Made by a program: the position numbers and the translations under genes
Notes under the pieces: generated by a model
Seen by the model: the letters and a program-made list of their open reading frames with translations, nothing else
Database searches by the model: none
What the model was told of the DNA's origin: nothing
DNA from: Rubricoccus marinus
GTDB lineage: Bacteria > Bacteroidota > Rhodothermia > Rhodothermales > Rubricoccaceae
DNA length: 64,000 bases
Direction: 5' to 3'
Assembly (NCBI RefSeq): GCF_002257665.1
Contig: NZ_MQWB01000001.1
Location: 2,642,370 to 2,706,369 of the forward strand
Shown here: piece after piece, positions 5,150 through 55,819 of the stretch
Position numbering within the stretch: position 1 is the stretch's first letter
Layout of the letters: each line of letters starts with the position of its first letter

Positions 5150-5208
5150 CGGCCGCTGGCGCCAGAGGCGGCGGCATCGCAACCGAACACGTTCTCCCCT
5201 ACAGCGTC

Positions 5209-5228
5209 ATTCCCGCGCAGGCGGGAAT
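5209..5228 (+). repeat. dRS3-like palindrome, copy 1
   Basis: ATTCCCGCGCAGGCGGGAAT fits the ATTCCC-N8-GGGAAT consensus of neisserial dRS3 exactly. The flanks (GTC before, CCAG after) match copies 2 and 3 in inverted orientation, so conservation goes beyond the 20-bp core. Confidence 0.75.
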
Positions 5229-5357
5229 CCAGCGTACCGGAGGATCTCTCAAGCTGGCCGCCGGAGCAGAGGACGCGCGCCAGAGACGGTTCCACTCTCG
5301 CACGCCTCTCCCTGCTAGCTCGTGCCTTGCACAAGCCTCTGGCGCTCATCACCCTGG

Positions 5358-5377
5358 ATTCCCGCGTACGCGGGAAT
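5358..5377 (-). repeat. dRS3-like palindrome, copy 2
   Basis: ATTCCCGCGTACGCGGGAAT, in inverted orientation to copy 1 (CCTGG before, GACAG after). With copy 1 it bounds a 170-bp stretch without a gene. Confidence 0.75.
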
Positions 5378-5450
5378 GACAGCGTAGACAAGACAGGTCC
5401 CAGCAGGGAGAGACGAGAACAGACGAGAGACCGCACCATCGCGCCAGAGG

Positions 5451-44195: not shown

Positions 44196-45431
44196 GTGCC
44201 TGTGCTCACCCCTCCCCGCTCCTGGCTTCTTGCCCTTCTGCTGGTCTCATCCGCGGCGATGGCCCAGAGCCCCCCGGCAGACAGTGCTGCGACCCCGTTC
44301 TCCATCCGCGGCTACGGCGTCATCAACTACGCCGCCTACGACTGGGAGACCGACCCGGCGCGACGCGCCGCCATCGACGTGGAGCGGTTGGTGCTCTACC
44401 CCACCCTGCAGTTGGCCGAGCGCGTGGCGCTCCGCGCAGAGTTCGAGATCGAGCACGCCGGGACGGGGGCGGCGCTGGAGTTCGACGTGTTCGAGGAGTT
44501 CGGCGAGTTTGAGCAGGAGATCGAGAAAGGCGGCGAGGTGGTGCTGGAGCAGCTCCACGTGGAGTTCGCGCTGCGACCGGCCTTCGGCGTCCGCGTGGGC
44601 AAGGTGAAGCTGCCCATCGGGCTCGCGGCCGTCAACGACGAGCCCAACGAGTACTACACCACGACGCGCGGCGAGGCCGAGGCGACGATCATCCCCAGCA
44701 ACTGGTACGAGACCGGCGTGCAGGCGTACGGATCGCTCGGGCGCGCGGCCTACGTCGTCTCGCTCGTGAGCGGCCTCGACGCCAGCGGCTTCAGCTCGGC
44801 GAACTGGGTGCAGCGCGGCGGGCAGAGCCGGTTCGAGACCGTCAACGCCGACGACCTCGCGCTCCATGCGCGTCTGGACTGGGCGCCGGCCTCTGGCGTG
44901 CGCGTGGGCGCCAGCGGCTACGTGGGCGACAGCGCCGGCAACCGCCCGCGCCCCGACCTGGACGTCTCCGCGGTCGTGGCGATCGGGAGCGTGCACGGCG
45001 AGGTGCAGCGCGGCGCGCTCACGCTCCGCGGCGCGGCGCTCTACGGCCGCCTCGGCAACGCGGGCGCCGTCTCGCAGGCCAACCGCAACCTCCCCAACGC
45101 GCTCGGCGTGCGCCGCACACCCGTCGCGAGCGCGGCCTACGGCGTGGGCGTGGAGGCGGGGCTGGACCTCACCCAGGTCGTCCCCGCGCTCCGGGCCTCT
45201 GGCGACCGCTTGGACGTGTTCGCGCGCGCCGACGCCTACGACAGCATGGCCGAGGTGACCGGGGCGGTCTTCGACAACCCGCGCTGGCAGCGCACGGCCT
45301 ACACCGCCGGCCTCAACTGGCGGCCCGTGGAGCCCGTCGTGTTCAAAGCGCACCTCAGCCGCCGCGTGCTCGGCACAGGCGCCGACCGGATCGAGGACAC
45401 CGCCTCGCTCGGCCTCGGCTTCGAGTTCTAA
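44196..45431 (+). CDS. Phosphate-selective-porin-like outer-membrane protein (iron operon)
   Basis: A 411-residue protein from a GTG start with signal peptide SWLLALLLVSSAAMAQ. The rest is beta-strand rich: FSIRGYGVINYAAYDWE, RLVLYPTLQLAERVALRAEF, VRVGKVKLPIGLAAVNDEPN, SRRVLGTGADRIEDTASLGL, ending in GFEF. It resembles porin O/P-type proteins and fits a barrel opening the outer membrane. It is the first gene of an apparent operon with the imelysin and di-heme genes (78 and 68 bp gaps). The 5' half has no motif copies until 44889. Metal or anion permeation is inferred from context. Confidence 0.8.
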   Translation: MPVLTPPRSWLLALLLVSSAAMAQSPPADSAATPFSIRGYGVINYAAYDWETDPARRAAIDVERLVLYPTLQLAERVALRAEFEIEHAGTGAALEFDVFEEFGEFEQEIEKGGEVVLEQLHVEFALRPAFGVRVGKVKLPIGLAAVNDEPNEYYTTTRGEAEATIIPSNWYETGVQAYGSLGRAAYVVSLVSGLDASGFSSANWVQRGGQSRFETVNADDLALHARLDWAPASGVRVGASGYVGDSAGNRPRPDLDVSAVVAIGSVHGEVQRGALTLRGAALYGRLGNAGAVSQANRNLPNALGVRRTPVASAAYGVGVEAGLDLTQVVPALRASGDRLDVFARADAYDSMAEVTGAVFDNPRWQRTAYTAGLNWRPVEPVVFKAHLSRRVLGTGADRIEDTASLGLGFEF

Positions 45432-45473
45432 ACCCACACCTCCTTCGGCCTCCAGAGGCCGGCCTCCGTTTCC

Positions 45474-45493
45474 GGCCTCTGGCGCCAGAGGCC
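45474..45493. repeat. Head-to-head motif pair between porin and imelysin genes
   Basis: A 20-bp palindrome, 42 bp after the porin stop and 16 bp before the imelysin start. It may lower downstream expression without ending the operon. Confidence 0.65.
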
Positions 45494-45509
45494 TCCCCAC
45501 CTTTTTACG

Positions 45510-46553
45510 ATGACCCGCTTTCTCCTCCTCTCCGCCCTCGCGCTGACTCTCGCCGCCTGCGACACCGGCGGCGGGGTCGGCACCGACGACGTCGAGGCGC
45601 GCCCGGCCCTCGAAAACGTCGCCGACAACGTGATCACGGCGACCTACGGCGACCTCGCCGCCGAGGCGGCCGACCTGGTGGTCGCCGTCAACGACCTCGA
45701 CGCAGACCGCTCCGACGCGCGCCTCGCCCTCGCGCAACAGGCGTGGCGCGACGCGCGGGCGCCCTGGGAGCTGTCCGAAGGCTTCCTCTTCGGCCCCGTC
45801 GATACGGAGGGCCTGGACCCCTCGCTGGACAGCTGGCCCGTGAACCAGACCGACCTGGACGCCGTGCTGGCCTCTGGCGCGAGCCTCACCCCCTCCTACG
45901 TGGCGGGCCTGGAGGCCACGCTGCGTGGCTTCCACACCATCGAGTACCTGCTGTTCGGCGAGGACGGCGACAAGCGCGCGGCCGACTTCACGGACCGGGA
46001 GGTGCAGTACCTCGCCTCCGCGACGGCCGTCCTGCGCGACGACGCGGCCCGCCTCGTGACCCTCTGGATGCCATCCGGCGGCAATTATGCCGCCGAGATC
46101 AAAAACGCGGGCCTGAGCGGCAGCCTCTACGTGAGCCAGAACGCCGCCGTGCAGGAGCTCATCGGCGGGCTCATCACCATCACCGACGAGGTGGGCGCGG
46201 GCAAGCTCGGCGGCCCCTACGGCGACCGCTCGACGGCCGAGGAGGAGTCGCGCTTTAGCGGCAACTCCATCGCCGACTTCAGCAACAACATCCGCAGCGT
46301 CCAGAACGTGTACCTCGGCGCCTACGACGGGCGCAGCGGCGCCGGCCTGACGGACCTCGTGTCCGCGCGCGACGAGGCGCTCGACGCCCGCGTGCAGGCG
46401 GAGATCACGGCCGCTATCAACGCCATCGAGGCCATCCCGGCGCCGTTCTCGACGGCCATCTTCGAGAGCCGCCCCACGGTGCAGGCCGCCATCGACGCCG
46501 TGCTCGCGCTCCGCGCCACGCTCGAAGGCCCCGTCACCGCCGCGCTCCGCTAG
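45510..46553 (+). CDS. Imelysin-family lipoprotein (IrpA-like)
   Basis: A 347-residue lipoprotein (MTRFLLLSALALTLAACDTG, lipobox LAAC). The imelysin GxHxxE motif is G140-F-H142-T-I-E145 in RGFHTIEYLLFG, and the second half holds SVQNVYLGAYDG, typical for the two-bundle family (M75 peptidase-like, without proven protease activity). Imelysins such as IrpA are periplasmic and iron-regulated. Next to a porin and a di-heme protein this fits the known imelysin-DUF1111 neighbourhood. A role in iron capture or handling is inferred. Confidence 0.9.
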   Translation: MTRFLLLSALALTLAACDTGGGVGTDDVEARPALENVADNVITATYGDLAAEAADLVVAVNDLDADRSDARLALAQQAWRDARAPWELSEGFLFGPVDTEGLDPSLDSWPVNQTDLDAVLASGASLTPSYVAGLEATLRGFHTIEYLLFGEDGDKRAADFTDREVQYLASATAVLRDDAARLVTLWMPSGGNYAAEIKNAGLSGSLYVSQNAAVQELIGGLITITDEVGAGKLGGPYGDRSTAEEESRFSGNSIADFSNNIRSVQNVYLGAYDGRSGAGLTDLVSARDEALDARVQAEITAAINAIEAIPAPFSTAIFESRPTVQAAIDAVLALRATLEGPVTAALR

Positions 46554-46568
46554 CCCGCCCGACGGCCC

Positions 46569-46614
46569 CGCCAGAGGCCTCTGGCGTCCCCCCACAGCCT
46601 CTGGCGCCAGAGGC
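46569..46614. repeat. Adjacent tail-to-tail and head-to-head motif pairs
   Basis: Four motif copies in 46 bp: the tail pair at 46569-46586 and the head pair at 46597-46614. They are the densest cluster in the window and sit between the imelysin and di-heme genes, only 7 bp before the next ATG. Confidence 0.75.
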
Positions 46615-46621
46615 GCCCGCC

Positions 46622-47911
46622 ATGCGCGTCCTCGCTCTCCTCGCCCTCGCCGTCTCGCTCGCCGCGTGCGACTCCGCCGCGCCCTCGGGCGGCGCCGAGC
46701 CCCTGGCGGGAGGCGCGACGACGGTCTTCGACGCCAGCGGCAACGGGTTCTCGACGCCGGCGCCCAACCTCTCGGCGGGGGACCTGGCGCTCCACCTCGT
46801 GGGCGACGCCGAGTTCGAGGCCACGTTCGTGACCGCGCCCGCGCCGGTCAACGGTGGGCTGGGGCCGGTCTTCAACAACACGTCCTGCATCGCGTGCCAC
46901 GCGCGCGACGGCCGTAGCCGCGAGTCCCTGCTGCTGCGCGTGAGCCAGCGCGGGCGCGACCTCAACGGCGGGCCTCTGGCGGCGGATGGGTTCGGCCTCC
47001 AGGTGCAGGACCGCGCGATCCTCGGCCACCAGCCGGAAGGCACCGTGCAGGTGGCGTGGACCGAGCGCCGAGAGGTGCTGAGCGACGGGACGGTGGTGAG
47101 CCTCCGCGAGCCGGCGTACACCATCGGCCGGCCGCTGCACGCCCTCCCCTCCGAGGTCTCGCCGCGCTTTTCGCGCCCGGTCTTCGGCCTCGGCCTGCTC
47201 GAAGCCGTGCGCGAGAGCGACCTCTACGCACTCGCGCGGGCGCAAGAGGCCGGCGGCGAGGTGTCGGGCCGCCCCAACGTCGTCTGGGACCCCATCGAGG
47301 GGCGCATGCGGGTGGGGCGCTTCGGGTGGAAGGCGAACCAGCCCAGCCTGATTTCCCAGACCGTGACGGCGTACAGCGAGGACATGGGCGTGTCGTCGCC
47401 GTGGGCGCTGTCGGCCTCTGGCGAGGCCGAGATCGACCGCGAGACCGTGGAGGCGGTGACGTTCTACACCCAAACGCTGGGCGTGCCCGCGCGCCGCGGC
47501 GTGCTCGACCCGATGGTGGTGCGCGGCGAGAGGCTCTTCGCGAGCGTGGGCTGCGCGTCCTGCCACGCCCCGGAGCTCCGCACGGGATCCCAGACGGGCG
47601 TGGCGGCGGTCTCCAACCAGACGATCCGGCCCTACACCGACCTCCTCCTGCACGACATGGGGCCCGCGCTCGCCGACGGACGCCCGGACTTCGGCGCCAG
47701 CGGCAGCGAGTGGCGCACGCCGCCGCTGTGGGGCCTTGGCCTGACGCGCGTCGTCAACGGCGCCGAGGAGCTGATGCACGACGGCCGCGCCAGAGGCGTC
47801 GTAGAGGCCGTGATGTGGCACGGCGGCGAGGCCGAGGCCGCGCGCGAACGGTTCCGCGCGCTCTCGCGCGAGGAGCGCGACGCCCTCCTGGCGTTCCTGC
47901 GCTCGCTCTAG
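46622..47911 (+). CDS. Di-heme oxidoreductase-like protein (DUF1111/thiol oxidoreductase family)
   Basis: A 429-residue lipoprotein (MRVLALLALAVSLAACDSA, lipobox LAAC). Two c-type heme sites are seen: CIACH at 89-93 and CASCH at 311-315. Other landmarks are NGGLGPVFNNTSCIACHARDG (quoted in part), FSRPVFGLGLLEAV, RFGWKANQPSL and TPPLWGLGLTRVVNG. DUF1111 proteins often partner imelysins in iron-uptake loci, where they may change the redox state of iron. Heme attachment in the periplasm requires a cytochrome c maturation system encoded elsewhere. Confidence 0.9.
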   Translation: MRVLALLALAVSLAACDSAAPSGGAEPLAGGATTVFDASGNGFSTPAPNLSAGDLALHLVGDAEFEATFVTAPAPVNGGLGPVFNNTSCIACHARDGRSRESLLLRVSQRGRDLNGGPLAADGFGLQVQDRAILGHQPEGTVQVAWTERREVLSDGTVVSLREPAYTIGRPLHALPSEVSPRFSRPVFGLGLLEAVRESDLYALARAQEAGGEVSGRPNVVWDPIEGRMRVGRFGWKANQPSLISQTVTAYSEDMGVSSPWALSASGEAEIDRETVEAVTFYTQTLGVPARRGVLDPMVVRGERLFASVGCASCHAPELRTGSQTGVAAVSNQTIRPYTDLLLHDMGPALADGRPDFGASGSEWRTPPLWGLGLTRVVNGAEELMHDGRARGVVEAVMWHGGEAEAARERFRALSREERDALLAFLRSL

Positions 47912-48098: not shown

Positions 48099-49865
48099 AT
48101 GCTCACCGCCCTCACCTGGCAGGCGTGGCTCACGCTCGCCGTCGTCCTCGGCCTCGTCGTCGCGCTCGTGCGCGACGTGGCGCGGCCCGAGCTCCTCCTC
48201 TTCGCCAGCCTCGCGCCGCTGCTCGCGCTCGGCGTGCTCTCGCCAGAGGACGCCTTCGCGGGGTTCTCCAACTCGGCGCCTCTGGCGGTCGGCGCGCTGT
48301 TCATCGTCGCCGCGGGCGTGCAGGCGACGGGCGCGCTCGCGTTCACGGACCGCCTCCTGTTCCGCCGCGGCGCCGGGCTCGCCGCGACGACGACGCAGAT
48401 GATGGTGACGACGGCCGCGCTCTCGGCCTTTCTCAACAACACGCCGCTTGTCGCGATGCTGATGCCGCGCGTGCAGGCGTGGTGCGAGCGCGCGGGCGTC
48501 TCGCCGTCCAAGATGATGATCCCGCTCTCGTACGCCGCCATCGTGGGCGGCATGACGACGCTGATCGGCACGAGCACCAACCTTCTCGTCTCGGGACTGA
48601 TGGAGGACGCCGGTCTTCCGGGGCTCGGCCTGTTCGGCCTCACGGCGGTCGGCGCGCCAGCGGCCCTCGCCGTCATCGCTTACTTCGGCCTGATCGGCCA
48701 CCGCTGGCTGCCAGACCGCGGGCTGGACGGCGACGACGCGATGGTCCCGGCCGACTGCCTGTTCGAGGTCCGCGTCCCCGCCGGATCGCCTCTGGCGGGC
48801 GCGACCGTCGAGGACGCGGAGCTGCGGTCGCTCGGCGACGCGTTCCTCGTCCACATCAGCAGCGGGGATCAGACCGTCCCCGCCTCGCCAGAGGCCGTCT
48901 TGCGCGAGGGCGACGTGCTGCTGTTCACCGGCGACCTCGCCGCAATGGACCGGCTCCTGGCGCGGCTCGGCGTTGAACGTGCGGTGGACGCCGTGGAGCC
49001 TAGCGGGTTGCCCGTGTACGAGGCCGTCGTGGCGGCCGGGTCGCCTCTGGCGGGCGCAACGCTGCGAGAGGCGCGCTTCCGCGAGGAGTACGGCGGCGTC
49101 GTGCTCGGCGTGCGCCGCCGCGAGGCCGCACTCGACGGGCCTCTAGGCCGCACGCCGCTGCAAGAAGGCGACCTGCTGCTCGTGGAGGCGCCAGAGGCCT
49201 TTGCCGAGCGGTGGGGCCGCGACCGCGGCACGTTCTACGTCGTTGCGCCCGTGCGCGCCGCGCGGACCGTCGCCCGGCCCGCTCAGGCCGCGGCGTCGCT
49301 CGCCATTCTTGTCGGCGTGATCGGCGTCTCCGCCATTTTCGACGTCTCCATCGTCACGACGGCGTTTCTCGGCGCCGTCGCCACGATCGCGACCGGCTGC
49401 CTGTCGTGGACCGAGGCGCGGCGCTCGGTGGACCTCCCCGTCCTCCTCGTCATCGTGGCCGCGCTGGGTCTGGGAAAGGCCATCGAGCAGACCGGGCTGG
49501 CCGCCGCCCTCGCCTCTGGCGTCGCCGGCCCCGCATCCGCGCTCGGACCCATCGCCGTGATCGCCGCGGCCTACCTCGTGACAAGTCTGCTGACCGAGGT
49601 CATCACCAACAATGCCGCCGCCGCGCTCATGGTGGGCGTGGGTCTGGAGGCCTCGGCGGCGACCGGCGCCCCGCCAGAGGCCTTTGCGGTTGCGGTCGCG
49701 ATTGCGGCCTCGGCGAGCTTTCTCACGCCCGTCGGCTACCAGACCAACATGATGGTGATGGCGGCCGGGCGGTACCGGTTCTCGGACTACCTCCAGAGCG
49801 GCGCGGCCGTCAACGTGATCGTGGCGGTGACGGCGCTCGCGATGATCTGGATCGTGTGGCTGTAG
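48099..49865 (+). CDS. SLC13-family permease with TrkA-C domains
   Basis: A 588-residue inner-membrane protein. It begins with LTALTWQAWLTLAVVLGLVV and has the SLC13/DASS repeats SAFLNNTPLVAMLMP and IGTSTNLLVSGLMED; the second repeat shows EVITNNAAAALM and PVGYQTNMMVMAAG. Two RCK-C/TrkA-C domains lie between (about residues 215-385: LFEVRVPAGSPLAGATVEDA and PVYEAVVAAGSPLAGATLRE). The NT-type sodium-binding hairpins suggest Na+-coupled uptake of an anion such as sulfate, dicarboxylate or tellurite-like oxyanion. The ion is not certain. The PLAGAT loops are motif-encoded in both TrkA-C copies. Confidence 0.9.
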   Translation: MLTALTWQAWLTLAVVLGLVVALVRDVARPELLLFASLAPLLALGVLSPEDAFAGFSNSAPLAVGALFIVAAGVQATGALAFTDRLLFRRGAGLAATTTQMMVTTAALSAFLNNTPLVAMLMPRVQAWCERAGVSPSKMMIPLSYAAIVGGMTTLIGTSTNLLVSGLMEDAGLPGLGLFGLTAVGAPAALAVIAYFGLIGHRWLPDRGLDGDDAMVPADCLFEVRVPAGSPLAGATVEDAELRSLGDAFLVHISSGDQTVPASPEAVLREGDVLLFTGDLAAMDRLLARLGVERAVDAVEPSGLPVYEAVVAAGSPLAGATLREARFREEYGGVVLGVRRREAALDGPLGRTPLQEGDLLLVEAPEAFAERWGRDRGTFYVVAPVRAARTVARPAQAAASLAILVGVIGVSAIFDVSIVTTAFLGAVATIATGCLSWTEARRSVDLPVLLVIVAALGLGKAIEQTGLAAALASGVAGPASALGPIAVIAAAYLVTSLLTEVITNNAAAALMVGVGLEASAATGAPPEAFAVAVAIAASASFLTPVGYQTNMMVMAAGRYRFSDYLQSGAAVNVIVAVTALAMIWIVWL

Positions 49866-49950
49866 CCGGCCTCTGGCGCTAGAGGCGTCTCTGTTTTGAG
49901 AAGGCCCGGGCGTGAAGGCGGCGGGGCGGCGGGTTCCGCCTCCCCCTCCG

Positions 49951-49962: not shown

Positions 49963-50352
49963 GTGACCCGGCTCCGCTCCGCGCTCCAGTTCGTCCTTGT
50001 TCTCGCCCTCGTGGCGAGCACGCAGGGGCTGCTCCTGGCGCAGAGCTCGTGGCTCGTCAACCAGGAGTGGATCGCGGAGGTGCTCTGCGAAAACCCCGAG
50101 ACGGACTGCGACGGCAAGTGCCAGCTCATGGACCGGATGGAGAAGATGGGCCACGGCGAGCACTCGCACGACGAGCCCGCCACGCTTCTCGAACTGGCCC
50201 TCTCGGTGAGGGCCTCGGTCACGGAACGCACAGCGGCTCCGGCCCCGCCCAGCGCGGACGCCAGAGGCCCCGTTGCGCGAGATGTCCACGATTCCGGGAG
50301 GGAGGCCTCCCTGGGCGTTTTCCACCCCCCGCGGACGGAGACGACGGCGTAG
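49963..50352 (+). CDS. Small Cys-motif membrane protein of the copper locus
   Basis: A 129-residue protein from a GTG start (VTRLRSALQFVLVLALVAST). One N-terminal helix or signal is followed by WIAEVLCENPETDCDGKCQL, a three-Cys element (C-x7-C-x3-C). A similar LC...C.GKC.L element is known to me from small Bacteroidota proteins that sit beside metal TonB receptors. A His patch (GHGEHSHDE) follows. Cys and His together fit binding of Cu or another soft metal in the periplasm. It is first in a run of five same-strand genes. An upstream in-frame GTG at 49912 would add a proline-rich leader and is not used. Confidence 0.65.
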   Translation: MTRLRSALQFVLVLALVASTQGLLLAQSSWLVNQEWIAEVLCENPETDCDGKCQLMDRMEKMGHGEHSHDEPATLLELALSVRASVTERTAAPAPPSADARGPVARDVHDSGREASLGVFHPPRTETTA

Positions 50353-50546
50353 CTGCCCTCGCCCTGGAGGCGAGGCGACGGCTCACGCCGCCCCATCGGA
50401 TACGGCCGCACCGCTCGGCGCCCCGCCTCTGGCGCACGGCGCCGGATGCCGCGTGTGGCCGCGCTTCCGCATCGCTCTTGCCTCCGGCGTCGCCAGAGGC
50501 CGTCTCCCCTTTGCAGGCGCCCGGCGTCTGCACGCTCTCCGTACGC

Positions 50547-51419
50547 ATGAACCTCCGCACGCTTGCGCCCACCGGCGCTCTTCTCCTCGGCCTCGCCGCC
50601 CTCCCCCTCACGGGCTGCGACTCCACCGACACTTCCGACCAGCCCGCCACGCTCCGCCTCGACGTGGAGCCCATGACCGGCTCCGACGCCTTCCAGGCCG
50701 CTCAGCCATTTACCGTCAACGGCATGACGGCTGAGCTCGACATCGCGCAGATGTACCTCTCCGGCATCACGCTTCTCCACGAGGACGGCCGCGAGATTAT
50801 GCTCATGGCCGACGAGCCGATTACCGTCCGCGCGCAGGACGAGAACCAGACCGAGATCCAGCACACCGTCGAGAAGCGCTACGTCCTCGTGGACGCGGAC
50901 GCGGGCAACACGCTCACGTCCCTCGGCGAGGTGCCCTCTGGCCGCTACACCGGCGTTCGTTTCCTTCTCGGCGTAGAGGGGCTGGACAACCGGATCGCGC
51001 CAGAGGATCTGCCGGCCGATCACCCGCTCGCGCCCCAGACGCAGACGATGCACTGGAACTGGAACGCGGGCTACGTCTTCCTCCGATTCGATGGCCTGCT
51101 GGACATCGACGGCGACGGCACGGTCGACGCTTCGACCGGAACGCCTCGCGACCCGGCGTCCGGCCAGTGGCGGATGCATGTCGGTGGCGCGGCCAACGCG
51201 CAGACCGTCACGCTCAACCAGAGCTTTGAACTGGAGGGCGGCGAGATGCAGGATCTCCACGTGCAGGTGGACCTGAACCGCATCGTGCAGGGCCTCGACT
51301 TCTCTGACGCCTCCAAGCGCTGGTGCATGACGGGCGGCTGCCAGGACGTGGTGGACGCCGCCAAGGCCAACGTCCAGGCGGCCTTCAGCATCCACGGCGT
51401 GCACGGCCACGGCATGTAA
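50547..51419 (+). CDS. MbnP-like copper-binding lipoprotein
   Basis: A 290-residue lipoprotein starting at MNLRTLAPTGALLLGLAALP, lipobox LTGC. The MbnP family core is seen in FTVNGMTAELDIAQMYLSG, EVPSGRYTGVRFLLGVEGLDN, TMHWNWNAGYVFLRFDG and RVDLNRIVQGL-like sequence near the end. In characterised MbnP, a Trp converted to kynurenine by the di-heme partner MbnH takes part in Cu(I) binding. Trp170, Trp172, Trp208 and Trp259 are candidates here, the last next to Cys260 (WCMTGGC). The C terminus HGVHGHGM is rich in metal ligands. The mbnH-like gene starts 4 bp after the stop. Confidence 0.85.
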   Translation: MNLRTLAPTGALLLGLAALPLTGCDSTDTSDQPATLRLDVEPMTGSDAFQAAQPFTVNGMTAELDIAQMYLSGITLLHEDGREIMLMADEPITVRAQDENQTEIQHTVEKRYVLVDADAGNTLTSLGEVPSGRYTGVRFLLGVEGLDNRIAPEDLPADHPLAPQTQTMHWNWNAGYVFLRFDGLLDIDGDGTVDASTGTPRDPASGQWRMHVGGAANAQTVTLNQSFELEGGEMQDLHVQVDLNRIVQGLDFSDASKRWCMTGGCQDVVDAAKANVQAAFSIHGVHGHGM

Positions 51420-51423
51420 TCCC

Positions 51424-52443
51424 ATGCTGGCCCGCCTCTGGCGCGGCCCGTTTCTGCTGGCGGCCGTTCTCGCGATGGCCGCCAGCGGGTGTGACAGTTC
51501 CAGTCCCGAGCGCCCCGCGCTCGTGACGGTTCCGGTGCCACAGGGCTTCGCGCCCCTCCCTGTCCCCCCTCAGAACCCGCTCTACGCCGACCGCGTGGCG
51601 CTGGGCGAGAGGCTGTTTTTCGATCCCGTGCTCTCGCGGGACCGGACGGTCTCGTGCGGCTCCTGCCACCTGCCGGAGCTGTCGTTTTCGGATGGTCGCC
51701 AGAGGAGCGTCGGCGTCGGCGGGGCCACAGGCCTTCGCAACGCGCCCTCGCTGCTCAACGTGGCCTATCGCAAGAGCCTGTTCTGGGACGGCGGCGCGCT
51801 GTTCCTCGAAAGCCAGGCGCTCGTCCCGCTCGAAGACCCGCACGAGATGGACCTCGCGCCAGAGGCCGCATTGGAGCGGCTGCGCGAGCACCCGGAGTAC
51901 CCCGTCCTTTTCGAGCGCGCCTTCGACGGCGACGGCCCGAGCGTCCAGACGCTGACCTACGCCCTCGCGGCGTACCAGCGCACGCTCGTGAGCGCGCCTG
52001 TGGCCTTCGACCGCTACCGAGCGGGCGATACCTCCGCCCTCTCGCCAGAGGCCCGCGACGGCCTCGCGTTGTTCCAAACGCACTGCTCCGCCTGCCACGC
52101 GGGCGCGCAGCTCACGACGGACGGCTTCGAGAACAACGGCACGTCCGTCACCGACGACGACCCCGGCCGCGAGCGCATCACGTTCGCCTCTGGCGACCGC
52201 GGCACGTTCCGCGTGCCCAGCCTCCGCGCCGTGGCGCGGACGGCGCCCTACTTCCACGACGGACGGTTCCAGACCCTGGAAGCCGTCGTGGCCCATTACG
52301 ACGAGGGAGGCGACGGCACGCCGGGACAGAGCCCGCGCGTCCGCCCGCTCCGCCTGTCCTCTGGCGAGAAGGCCGCCCTCGTGGCCTTTCTCCAGACCCT
52401 CGACGACCGTCCCGCTGCGGTCGACCGATCCCCGACCCGATGA
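51424..52443 (+). CDS. MbnH/MauG-type di-heme cytochrome c peroxidase family protein
   Basis: A 339-residue lipoprotein (SGC lipobox-like site in LAMAASGCDSS). Two heme c sites: CGSCH at 78-82 and CSACH at 221-225. The CcpA/MauG family pattern continues with LGERLFFDPVLSRD, GLRNAPSLLNVAYRKSLFWD, and TAPYFHDGRFQTLEAVVAHY. Genes of this family directly behind mbnP encode MbnH, which oxidises a Trp of MbnP. The 4-bp gap to the mbnP-like gene supports that role. An ordinary cytochrome c peroxidase cannot be excluded from sequence alone. Confidence 0.88.
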   Translation: MLARLWRGPFLLAAVLAMAASGCDSSSPERPALVTVPVPQGFAPLPVPPQNPLYADRVALGERLFFDPVLSRDRTVSCGSCHLPELSFSDGRQRSVGVGGATGLRNAPSLLNVAYRKSLFWDGGALFLESQALVPLEDPHEMDLAPEAALERLREHPEYPVLFERAFDGDGPSVQTLTYALAAYQRTLVSAPVAFDRYRAGDTSALSPEARDGLALFQTHCSACHAGAQLTTDGFENNGTSVTDDDPGRERITFASGDRGTFRVPSLRAVARTAPYFHDGRFQTLEAVVAHYDEGGDGTPGQSPRVRPLRLSSGEKAALVAFLQTLDDRPAAVDRSPTR

Positions 52444-52691
52444 GACGACACCGCCCCCACACCGCGCCGCCCCTGCCCGACGCCTCTGGCGCCAGAGGCT
52501 CGGTCCTGCCTCCGGCGGAGGCAAAAGAGCGTCGGCGTTCGTCGTCAGCGCCGATCCCTCCGACAGCGCCCCCTGTACACTCCACGAACGCGCTGGACGG
52601 GCGCGATGGTCGAGGCGGGCTCCCTCCCTGCGATTCTGAAGCGAGCGGCTTCCACCGACGCTCAACACCCTGGATTCCCGCCTTCGCGGGA
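52444..52691. other. 248-bp spacer with repeats inside the copper locus
   Basis: It holds a head-to-head motif pair (52482-52499), a GC-rich hairpin CCTCCGGCGGAGG (52508-52520) and a dRS3-like palindrome at its end. No gene is seen. It separates the mbnH-like gene from the YtkA-like gene, so a separate promoter for the last two genes is possible. Confidence 0.6.
52482..52499. repeat. Head-to-head motif pair after the mbnH-like gene
   Basis: GCCTCTGGCGCCAGAGGC, 38 bp after the stop codon. Confidence 0.7.
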
Positions 52692-52693
52692 AT
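52674..52693 (-). repeat. dRS3-like palindrome, copy 3
   Basis: ATTCCCGCCTTCGCGGGAAT with the same flanks (CCTGG before, GACGAG after) and orientation as copy 2 at 5358. Its last bases overlap a possible ATG of the next gene, so the repeat lies directly at a gene start. Confidence 0.75.
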
Positions 52694-52700
52694 GACGAGA

Positions 52701-53597
52701 ATGGGGCTGAAGAGCCAGAAACCGGAGATCTCCGCGAGCACCGTACACCCAGTACGCGGAAGCCTCCTCCGGGGCGCGGGTTCCGCTCGCGCACTCGCGA
52801 CGTGTCTGCTGATTCTCGTCGCCGGGTGCGTCCCGGACGGGCTGGAGGACTTCGACTTCCAGGGCCTGCAGCCGCCCCCACCGCCTGACGAACTAACCGG
52901 CGACGCCCTCGTCGGCACAGCCTCTGGCGGTGGTCTGGACGTGGAGCTCTACGCCGCCAGAGGCGGCGCGCACCTGGGCTACGTGCGGCTCGGCCTCCGC
53001 GTCGCGCGCTCCGGCGAAGCGGTCCGCGACGCGCGCATCGTGATTTCGGCCACGCCAGAGGCGGGACCCGCCTCTGGCGTCGCGCTGCCGGTGGAGAACC
53101 CCGCGACGGCCGCAGACGCCGACGGCTTCTTCCGCGGCGCCGCGTTTCTCCTCACGCCCGACACGACGGCCCGCGACTTCACCATTCGCGCGAGCGTCGA
53201 GACGCTGGACGGGGCCTCTGGCGAGGTGACGTTCGCCGTCGAGGCGCGCAACGACCTGTGGATGCAGAAGGACGGCGACCTGCTCGTTTCGTGGATCGAC
53301 CCGCTGCGGCCCGTCGTGGGCAACAACCTGTTCACGGTCGCGGCGCTCCGCTGGACGGGATCGGCCTTCGTGCCTGCCGACGGGCTCGGCGCCGACCTCT
53401 ATCCCTACATGGACATGGGCGGCGGCGACGGCCACTCGACGCCGCACAGCGCGCCAGAGGCCCTCGGCGATGGGCGCTACTCGTGGGACGTGGACTTCAT
53501 CATGTCGGGCGGATGGGAAATGACCGTCACCCTCACCCCGCCCGGCGAGAGCGACGCGACCGCCCGGTTCGTGGGCTACACCGTGTACGACCAATGA
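52701..53597 (+). CDS. YtkA/FixH-like lipoprotein of the copper locus
   Basis: About 298 residues from ATG 52701; an in-frame ATG at 52692 inside the repeat adds three residues. The lipobox is LVAGC (about residue 41), preceded by an unusual repeat-derived leader, so the native start may have been replaced. The mature protein has two beta domains. The second shows ADLYPYMDMGGGDGHSTPHS and WDVDFIMSGGWEMTVTLTPP, a YtkA-like layout with Met/His residues suited to copper. The stop overlaps the receptor ATG by 4 bp (ATGA). A periplasmic metal-carrier role is inferred from family and context. Confidence 0.72.
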   Translation: MGLKSQKPEISASTVHPVRGSLLRGAGSARALATCLLILVAGCVPDGLEDFDFQGLQPPPPPDELTGDALVGTASGGGLDVELYAARGGAHLGYVRLGLRVARSGEAVRDARIVISATPEAGPASGVALPVENPATAADADGFFRGAAFLLTPDTTARDFTIRASVETLDGASGEVTFAVEARNDLWMQKDGDLLVSWIDPLRPVVGNNLFTVAALRWTGSAFVPADGLGADLYPYMDMGGGDGHSTPHSAPEALGDGRYSWDVDFIMSGGWEMTVTLTPPGESDATARFVGYTVYDQ

Positions 53598-55819
53598 CCC
53601 GCCTCCTCCCTCTCCTCGCGCTCCTCCTGCTCGCCTCTGGCGCCTCCGCGCAAGAGGTCACCGGCCGCGTGCTGGACTCCGAGACCGACGCCCCCATTCC
53701 CGGCGCGACGGTCCGCGTGGACGGCACCGCCAGAGGCGCCGCTGCCGACGCGGACGGCCGCTTCCGCCTCGCGCTCCAACGCGGCGACACCATTCTCCTC
53801 GTCACCGCCATCGGCTACGCGCCCGAGCGCGTGCACGTCCACGGAACGCAGCCTCTGGCGATCCGCCTCGCGCCAGAGGCCACGCAGTTCGACGGCGTGA
53901 CGGTTGAGGGCGAGCACACGGTCGCGGGCGCCCCCTCGGCGCCGACGCGGACGCCAGGGACGACCGAGGACCTCCTCGGCCGGCTGCCCGGGGTGAACAT
54001 GATCCAGCGCGCCAACTTCGCCTCCGAGCCCGTCGTGCGCGGCTACCAGGGCGGGCAGATCAGCCTCACCATCGACGGGATGCCGGTCTACGGCGCGTGC
54101 GTGGACAAGATGGACCCGGCCTCCAGCTACGTCGAGCCCGAGAACCTGCGCGCCGTCTCGGTCTCGAAGGGAGCCTCGGATCTCGCCAGCGGCTCCCAGA
54201 TCGGCGGGTCGGTGGACCTCGCGACGCAGCGCCCTACGTTCGGCGCGCCTCTGGCGATGCAGGCCGAGAGCGGCGTCGAGTCCAACGGCATGGCGCGACG
54301 CGTGCGTGGTGCCGCGAGCGGCAGCATCGGGCCTCTGGCGCTGAGGGTCAGCGGCTCCTACCGCGGCTCTGGCGACTACGCGCCGGGCGGCGGCGAGACG
54401 ATCGAGACCTCGGGCTACGAGAAGCGCAACCTCGCCGCGGCGGCCTCGCTGCGCCTCGGCCGCGCCCACCAGCTCACGGCGCAGCTTATCACAGACGACG
54501 CGTGGCTCATTGGCTACCCGGCGCTGCTCATGGACGCCGTGCTCGCGCAGGCGCGCATCGGAAGCCTCGGATACGAAGGCAGCGCCCCGGGCCTCCACCA
54601 CCTCGAGGCCAAGCTCTACGCCAACCGCGTGGATCACTACATGGACGACCGCAACCGGAACGTGCTCGCGCGCGAGGTGATGCGCGGGATGTACATGCCG
54701 ATGGGCGGCTACACCGAGGTGGTCGGCGCGCAGGCCGAGGGCATGACGGTGTTCGGCGCGACGGGCCTGACGCTCACGGCCGACGCCCACCGCCTCCGCC
54801 AGTTCGGCGACATGACGATGTACAGCCTTTACCCCGGAATCCGGGACATGGTGCTGCTCAACGTCGGCGACGTGACGGCGCTCAACGGCTCGCTCACGCT
54901 CAAAGCCGAGCGGCCTCTGGCGGACCGCCTCACGGTCTCGGCCTCGGCTCGCGTGGACGGGACCGCGCGCGATGTGAGTCTGGAGGCCATGCGCCAGCTC
55001 TTCGAGCGCCGCACCGGCTCGTCGGACGTGGCGCGCCAGAGGCTCGTGCCGAGCGTGAACGCGATGGCGAGCTATTCGCTCACGCTCCAAACGCACCTCC
55101 GCCTCACGCTCGCGGACGCGGGCCGCCTGCCGACCGTCGTGGAGCAGTACGGCCACTACGTCTACAACTACGTGGACGGCTACTTCTACACCGGCGACCC
55201 GGACCTGAAAACGGAGCGGAGCCGCCAGATCGAACTCGGCGTCGCGCACGCAGGCTCGCGCATCGCGCTAGAGGCCTCAGCCTACGCGCATCAATTGTCC
55301 AACATCGTCGTGGGCCTGGCCGACCGCGACGTGGTGGCGGGCCTCGCCGGCTCCACCTACCGCTTCCGGCTCTACGACAACGTGGACAGCGGCTGGATGG
55401 CGGGCGGCGAGATCAGCGCACTCGCGCCGCTGGGCGGCGGCCTCGAAGCCGTCGCGAGCGTGTCCGCGGCCTACGGCCAGAACACGACGCTCGACGAGCC
55501 TCTGCCGATGATTCCGCCCGTCGGCGGCGTCCTCGCGCTGCGCTACGACCGACGCCCGCTCTTTGCCGAGGTCGAGACGCGATGGGCGCTCGCCCAGAAC
55601 CGCGTCTCGCGCTTCACCTACGGCGAGCGCGCCACGGACGGCTTCGCCGTTTTCGCCCTCCGTACAGGATGGCGGCCCGCCTCTGGCGCCCTGAGTAGCC
55701 TCCGTCTCCAGGCGGGCGTCGAGAACGTGCTGGACACCTTCTACCAGGAGCACCTCGCGATCTCGGACCTCGCCGCCAGAGGCCGCAGCGCGTACCTCAC
55801 GGTGGGCGTCGACCTGTAG
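53594..55819 (+). CDS. TonB-dependent receptor, probable copper receptor (OprC/NosA-like)
   Basis: A 741-residue outer-membrane protein: signal peptide (MTRLLPLLALLLLASGASAQ), CarboxypepD_reg-like domain (about 21-95), plug with LLGRLPGVNMIQRANFASEP and a 22-strand barrel ending in LTVGVDL. Key residues are Cys169-x3-Met173 in GACVDKMDPASSY and His348-x-Met350 in DHYMDDRN. OprC of Pseudomonas binds copper through a CxxxM plus HxM set in equivalent context (MDP after the Cys, MDN-like after the His). A further Met cluster (RGMYMPMGG) lies nearby. The gene is coupled to the YtkA-like gene. Copper uptake is well supported by motif plus operon; specificity is not proven. Confidence 0.88.
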   Translation: MTRLLPLLALLLLASGASAQEVTGRVLDSETDAPIPGATVRVDGTARGAAADADGRFRLALQRGDTILLVTAIGYAPERVHVHGTQPLAIRLAPEATQFDGVTVEGEHTVAGAPSAPTRTPGTTEDLLGRLPGVNMIQRANFASEPVVRGYQGGQISLTIDGMPVYGACVDKMDPASSYVEPENLRAVSVSKGASDLASGSQIGGSVDLATQRPTFGAPLAMQAESGVESNGMARRVRGAASGSIGPLALRVSGSYRGSGDYAPGGGETIETSGYEKRNLAAAASLRLGRAHQLTAQLITDDAWLIGYPALLMDAVLAQARIGSLGYEGSAPGLHHLEAKLYANRVDHYMDDRNRNVLAREVMRGMYMPMGGYTEVVGAQAEGMTVFGATGLTLTADAHRLRQFGDMTMYSLYPGIRDMVLLNVGDVTALNGSLTLKAERPLADRLTVSASARVDGTARDVSLEAMRQLFERRTGSSDVARQRLVPSVNAMASYSLTLQTHLRLTLADAGRLPTVVEQYGHYVYNYVDGYFYTGDPDLKTERSRQIELGVAHAGSRIALEASAYAHQLSNIVVGLADRDVVAGLAGSTYRFRLYDNVDSGWMAGGEISALAPLGGGLEAVASVSAAYGQNTTLDEPLPMIPPVGGVLALRYDRRPLFAEVETRWALAQNRVSRFTYGERATDGFAVFALRTGWRPASGALSSLRLQAGVENVLDTFYQEHLAISDLAARGRSAYLTVGVDL

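Follow-up and report, generated by a model that had tools for sequence, protein, structure and literature searches.

A small cysteine protein as the probable copper-sensing leader of a conserved MbnP/MbnH and OprC-type uptake operon in Rubricoccus marinus

The window analysed here is a stretch of 64,000 nucleotides (nt) of Rubricoccus marinus (contig NZ_MQWB01000001.1, positions 2,642,370 to 2,706,369), a genome with Rubrivirga and other Rhodothermales as close relatives. An earlier note, made from the letters alone, had described in it a five-gene copper-uptake locus with MbnP, MbnH and an OprC-like receptor, and had suggested that the small cysteine protein at its head may be an undescribed partner. 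Open reading frame (ORF) calling recovered all five ORFs at 49963-55819 on the + strand, and inspection of the codons placed the receptor motifs and the WxW tryptophans where they had been reported. The locus comprises the following features, among them the small protein, which is considered below as a candidate upstream open reading frame (uORF).

49963-50352, + strand: small Cys protein of 129 residues with a GTG start, proposed copper-sensing arrest uORF
50086-50121, + strand: codons of C42...CDGKC53, its proposed Cu(I)-sensing motif (codons checked)
50326-50331, + strand: codons of Pro122-Pro123, its proposed arrest site, six residues before the C-terminus (codons checked)
50353-50546, + strand: leader-to-MbnP spacer of 194 nt, richer in C than in G
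50547-51419, + strand: MbnP-family lipoprotein (PF20243)
51054-51056, + strand: codon of MbnP W170, first Trp of WxW and predicted kynurenine
51424-52443, + strand: MbnH-like di-heme lipoprotein (CGSCH, CSACH) of the bCcP/MauG superfamily
52669-52696, + strand: palindrome CCTGGATTCCCGCCTTCGCGGGAATGAC, resembling repetitive extragenic palindromic (REP) elements, between the MbnH and YtkA-like genes; also at 5206-5233 and 5353-5380
52701-53597 (alternative start 52692), + strand: YtkA-like lipoprotein with DLYPYMDMGGGDGHSTP...DFIMSGGWEMTV
53594-55819, + strand: OprC-like TonB-dependent receptor (Pfam, structure match, codon check)
54098-54112 and 54635-54643, + strand: codons of the receptor ligands C169/M173 and H348/M350, respectively

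The genes are tightly packed, the ATG of MbnH (51424) lying five bases past the final base of the MbnP stop codon (51419) and that of the receptor (53594) overlapping the YtkA-like stop (53597). The order MbnP, MbnH, YtkA, TonB-dependent transporter (TBDT) is shared by ten or more related genomes of the Rhodothermales, hence the locus is not a product of chance, and the four uptake genes form a conserved operon of a known kind. MbnP/MbnH pairs were reported in 2013 far beyond methanobactin producers, some of them near TBDTs (PMC3621798), and in 2022 there followed operons that are headed by CruR homologs and combine OprC-type TBDTs with MbnPH-like genes (PMC9426467). The suggestion of a copper route outside methanotrophs is supported, although it is less novel than the earlier note implied; what is new here is the leader, probably another form of copper-responsive uORF.

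Both its sequence and its predicted fold mark the receptor as OprC-like. It matched the Pfam TonB plug (44.5 bits) and barrel (86.9 bits) above the Pfam cut-offs, its closest solved structure was OprC (E 5e-32), and its C169/M173/H348/M350 aligned exactly with C143/M147/H323/M325, the copper site of OprC from Pseudomonas aeruginosa (PMC8610252). The four ligands are kept in every ortholog in which those regions were sequenced, as is the Met-rich VMRGMYMPM stretch, which aligned with the Met-rich extracellular stretch of OprC. The two proteins differ in that the receptor is only about 20% identical to OprC, carries an N-terminal CarboxypepD_reg-like domain and scored 150.6 bits against the TIGR01778 equivalog model, below the cut-off of 472.45, yet this was its best NCBIfam match. 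In the AlphaFold model (predicted template modelling score 0.66) the barrel fits OprC, and the first 28 fold matches in the PDB were all OprC, whereas the plug, with per-residue confidence (pLDDT) mostly below 50, is too poor for metal-site distances.

A similar picture, with NCBIfam equivalog models as best or near-best matches but below cut-off, was obtained for MbnP and MbnH. MbnP matched PF20243 with 107.5 bits (1e-30; gathering cut-off 27) and the WxW equivalog TIGR04052 (MbnP_like_WxW) with 60.1 bits (cut-off 140), while MbnH, whose gene adjoins that of MbnP, reached 180.5 bits against CCP_MauG (cut-off 25.6) and 230.7 bits against TIGR04039 (cut-off 362.85), and its two CxxCH motifs, CGSCH and CSACH, are invariant. 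Among the four tryptophans proposed earlier as kynurenine candidates, W170 was, together with H211, invariant in 20 of 20 homologs, the invariance of W172 was confined to this operon type, and neither W208 nor W259 was conserved. Profile alignment placed W170-N-W172 on the WNW of PDB 7l6g. In MbnP the first Trp of WxW is reportedly the one turned to kynurenine, a change required for Cu(I) binding. The pair thus resembles that of methanobactin producers in its adjacent MbnP-like and di-heme genes and in its WxW (PDB 7l6g; TIGR04052/TIGR04039; PMC3621798), and differs from it in the scores below the equivalog cut-offs and in its genomic setting: a search of the genome (97.7% complete) for MbnB-family genes (PF05114) gave none, so that a methanobactin system was rejected and the remark that methanobactin genes were not visible is supported. 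A search for a link to nitrous oxide reductase gave no match, but control genomes were likewise unmatched and the result is uninformative. Together with the receptor ligands, the WxW of MbnP supports the reading of the locus as one of copper uptake, and the operon offers a simple system in which to approach the role of MbnP/MbnH outside methanotrophs.

The YtkA-like protein scored 28.2 bits against PF13115 (cut-off 25.9), and its Met/His signature, DLYPYMDMGGGDGHSTP...FIMSGGW(D/E)MTV, is conserved. The gene remains paired with a TBDT in Balneolaceae that have no MbnP/MbnH at the locus, and both observations favour the earlier proposal of a genuine partner. ATG codons at 52692 and 52701 are the only starts in the stretch searched, and lie in or beside the REP-like repeat.

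The first gene encodes a protein with an N-terminal hydrophobic segment, the motif C42-x6-C49-D-G-K-C53 and a C-terminal FHPP-R. Neither Pfam nor NCBIfam holds a family model for this ORF or for its family, which was nonetheless found in 68 of 198 genomes of the phylum with a profile built from seven homologs, and in 112 of 296 with an N-terminal profile (one sample of genomes was searched per rank). In 48 aligned members, with a mean column identity of 23%, only C42, C49, G51, C53, P122 and P123 are invariant. The distance from the Cys motif to the Pro-Pro averages 66.6 residues (63-72, standard deviation 2.0) in 52 members chosen because they end in, or close to, a Pro-Pro. Since the first family profile included the C-terminus and could bias this result, the test was redone with a profile of the N-terminal half and with low-scoring matches: of 70 ORFs found by the N-terminal, Cys-containing half alone, 67, among them 37 of the 40 low-scoring ones, carry a Pro-Pro in their last 11 residues and 62-73 residues past the Cys motif, as compared to none of 189 control proteins encoded at the same loci. 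Two of the three ORFs that failed have a Pro-Pro slightly further from the end. The window ORF evolves as a protein, with a ratio of nonsynonymous to synonymous substitution rates of 0.26-0.27 against two relatives.

Members of the family stand at the head of MbnP or TonB-receptor operons. Of 44 genes directly downstream, as identified by simple ORF calling, 17 encode MbnP, 15 a TonB-plug protein and two YtkA. In the phylum sample, 23 of 67 MbnP genes are preceded on their own strand by a family member no more than 1.5 kb away, where about 0.0002 per gene would be expected. Several genomes carry two such ORFs at the head of successive blocks. At two loci (L087 and L088) a member heads genes that include an apparent cytochrome oxidase subunit I ORF (503-505 residues, judged by eye), which suggests that copper control extends beyond uptake.

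In nine related operons lacking this family, the position directly upstream is filled by another small Cys/His ORF ending in RGPP or RAPP (in one case RDPP). Seven of ten aligned rows of these replacement ORFs matched DUF2946 at E 0.1, one of them exceeding the Pfam cut-off, and their Cys-to-Pro-Pro spacing is constant at 48-50 residues. A third type of head ORF, Cys/His-rich (CEITFCSCE...CTCHH...), ending in RPPRV, RPPMV or RPPRG and matching no Pfam family in the three that were scanned, precedes YtkA-TBDT pairs in Balneolaceae:

L052, 8557-8997: Balneolaceae head ORF of the third type
L053, 8506-8946: Balneolaceae head ORF of the third type
L055, 8611-9078: Balneolaceae head ORF of the third type
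L056, 8552-9031: Balneolaceae head ORF of the third type

A small Cys protein of this architecture has a precedent in CruR of Bordetella pertussis, a DUF2946 protein and a demonstrated copper-sensing uORF at the head of a copper TBDT operon, in which a RAPP motif arrests translation, copper at a CXXC relieves it, and transcription is then terminated by Rho ahead of the receptor gene (PMC9426467); the RAPP arrest has also been shown in vitro (PMC12992588). The traits of CruR-type leaders, i.e., a Cys motif, a C-terminal Pro-Pro, a fixed spacing between them and a place at the head of a copper operon, are all present in the window ORF and its family. In both systems, that of CruR and its receptor BfrG (CrtA) and the present one, a small exported-type Cys protein precedes a copper TBDT, with a spacer of 162 nt after CruR and 194 nt here (PMC9426467, PMC12914433). 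The two also differ: no homology was detected, three cysteines in CX6-CxGKC stand in place of CXXC, HPP in place of RAPP and a spacing of about 66 residues in place of 45, and the receptor is of the OprC type with CxxxM and HxM, while CrtA has no conserved Cys or Met. Judged by how it is built, where it sits and the DUF2946-like RGPP/RAPP ORFs that take its place in sister operons, the small Cys protein is probably a regulatory leader, an arrest peptide that would sense copper and control the uptake operon, analogous to CruR and not detectably homologous to it. Its description as a copper partner was thus probably wrong in kind.

We infer a course of events as follows. When copper is scarce, a ribosome translating the leader would arrest at the Pro-Pro near the C-terminus, and this arrest would keep MbnP, MbnH, YtkA and the TBDT expressed. 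With about 66 residues between it and the Pro-Pro, the CX6-CxGKC motif would then probably lie just outside the ribosome tunnel, where binding of Cu(I) to the nascent chain would relieve the arrest and lower operon expression, probably through Rho ending transcription within the 194-nt spacer, as described for Bordetella CruR. Among the gene products, the OprC-like receptor would import ionic copper via CxxxM/HxM, MbnH would oxidise W170 of MbnP to kynurenine, enabling MbnP to bind Cu(I), and the Met/His-bearing YtkA-like lipoprotein may pass copper on in the periplasm.

Several observations weigh against this scheme. The excess of C over G in the spacer (+0.12 over 194 nt) is compatible with a Rho site, but it continues into the MbnP gene, and spacers across the family (median 126 nt) show little such excess; the C richness is not specific, it was rejected as the mark of a Rho site, and the Rho step is the least secure of those proposed. 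Some relatives have short spacers (35-50 nt). The motif in the window is FHPP instead of RAPP or RGPP, and the 48 aligned members of the family show HPP, RPP and others. Comparison of the window family with the DUF2946-like heads by hhalign gave a probability of 1%, with no homology detected; membership of DUF2946 (PF11162) was therefore rejected, as neither the ORF nor its family had a Pfam match to it. The absence of a profile relationship implies that a single operon slot is occupied by leaders that are unrelated or very distant and share one architecture. The sign of copper control is uncertain because in CutF, likewise a DUF2946 uORF, the response is reversed, with copper prolonging the stalling (PMC9973294).

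The first alternative, in line with the partner role suggested in the earlier note, is that of a copper chaperone: the small Cys protein would reside in the periplasm or be anchored in the membrane and would be structurally associated with MbnP and the receptor. The N-terminal hydrophobic segment, the Cys motif, the copper-gene neighbours and the purifying selection would all suit such a protein; however, a chaperone has no obvious use for a Pro-Pro held at a fixed distance at the extreme C-terminus across a divergent middle, and orthologous operons fill the same slot with other small proteins bearing arrest motifs, which makes this reading unlikely. Less probable still, the leader could act as does CutF of Rhodobacter capsulatus, a leader ORF likewise endowed with a Cys motif and a Pro-rich C-terminus, where the ribosome stalls longer at the Pro-rich end when copper is present, and copper in this way opens an mRNA structure that covers the next start and turns the genes on. 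CutF-like proteins share the signal sequence, the Cys motif and the C-terminal Pro-Pro, Bacteroidota members are listed among them, and the 194-nt spacer is strongly folded (z-score -1.8). The target of CutF, however, is a multicopper oxidase that serves detoxification and is switched on by copper via a stem-loop (PMC9973294), while the genes downstream here serve uptake, which copper should repress; moreover, folding around the MbnP start is not exceptional (z-score -0.9), and an RNA switch hiding the MbnP start was rejected for this reason. It is very improbable that the locus serves another metal or guards against copper excess instead of importing scarce copper: YtkA-like domains and di-heme peroxidases are known from several contexts, but the four OprC copper ligands are conserved, the WxW of MbnP is present and a Pfam scan of the operon found no detoxification genes of the efflux or oxidase kind.

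The preferred reading, a leader that gauges copper by arrest, can be extended with somewhat less assurance. We lean towards the view that the window ORF founds a class of copper-sensing arrest peptides in Bacteroidota and Rhodothermota, with a three-Cys CxGxC-type sensor and an (F)HPP arrest motif, not detectably related to DUF2946/CruR and interchangeable with leaders of the DUF2946 type in heading the same MbnPH/OprC operon. None of the papers found describes or tests an HPP/CxGKC family, although the wider CutF-like list, which includes many Bacteroidota proteins (PMC9973294), may already contain the family under another name. A survey of RAPP/RGPP uORFs published in 2025 reported that copper-related ones are missing from Bacteroidota (PMC12992588), which a different arrest motif would explain. 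If the reading is correct, a small-protein family present in 112 of the 296 genomes and lacking a Pfam or NCBIfam model would gain a function as the copper gauge of uptake operons, and two leader families, not detectably related but of one architecture and in the same slot, would allow the rules of nascent-chain metal sensing to be compared side by side.

Two features of the wider window deserve mention. A second metal-type cluster lies just upstream at 44196-47911, comprising a porin-like protein (44196-45431), an imelysin lipoprotein (45510-46553) and a DHOR di-heme protein (46622-47911), and likewise pairs a lipoprotein with a di-heme partner; an SLC13/CitMHS-type transporter with TrkA_C domains (48099-49865) separates it from the copper locus. 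The 10-mer GCCTCTGGCG/CGCCAGAGGC occurs in 240 copies in the 64 kb against 0.58 expected, for instance at 49869, 50259, 50425, 50491 and 52482, often with two inverted copies directly adjoining (GCCTCTGGCGCCAGAGGC), within genes as well as in spacers, and recalls the cyanobacterial HIP1.

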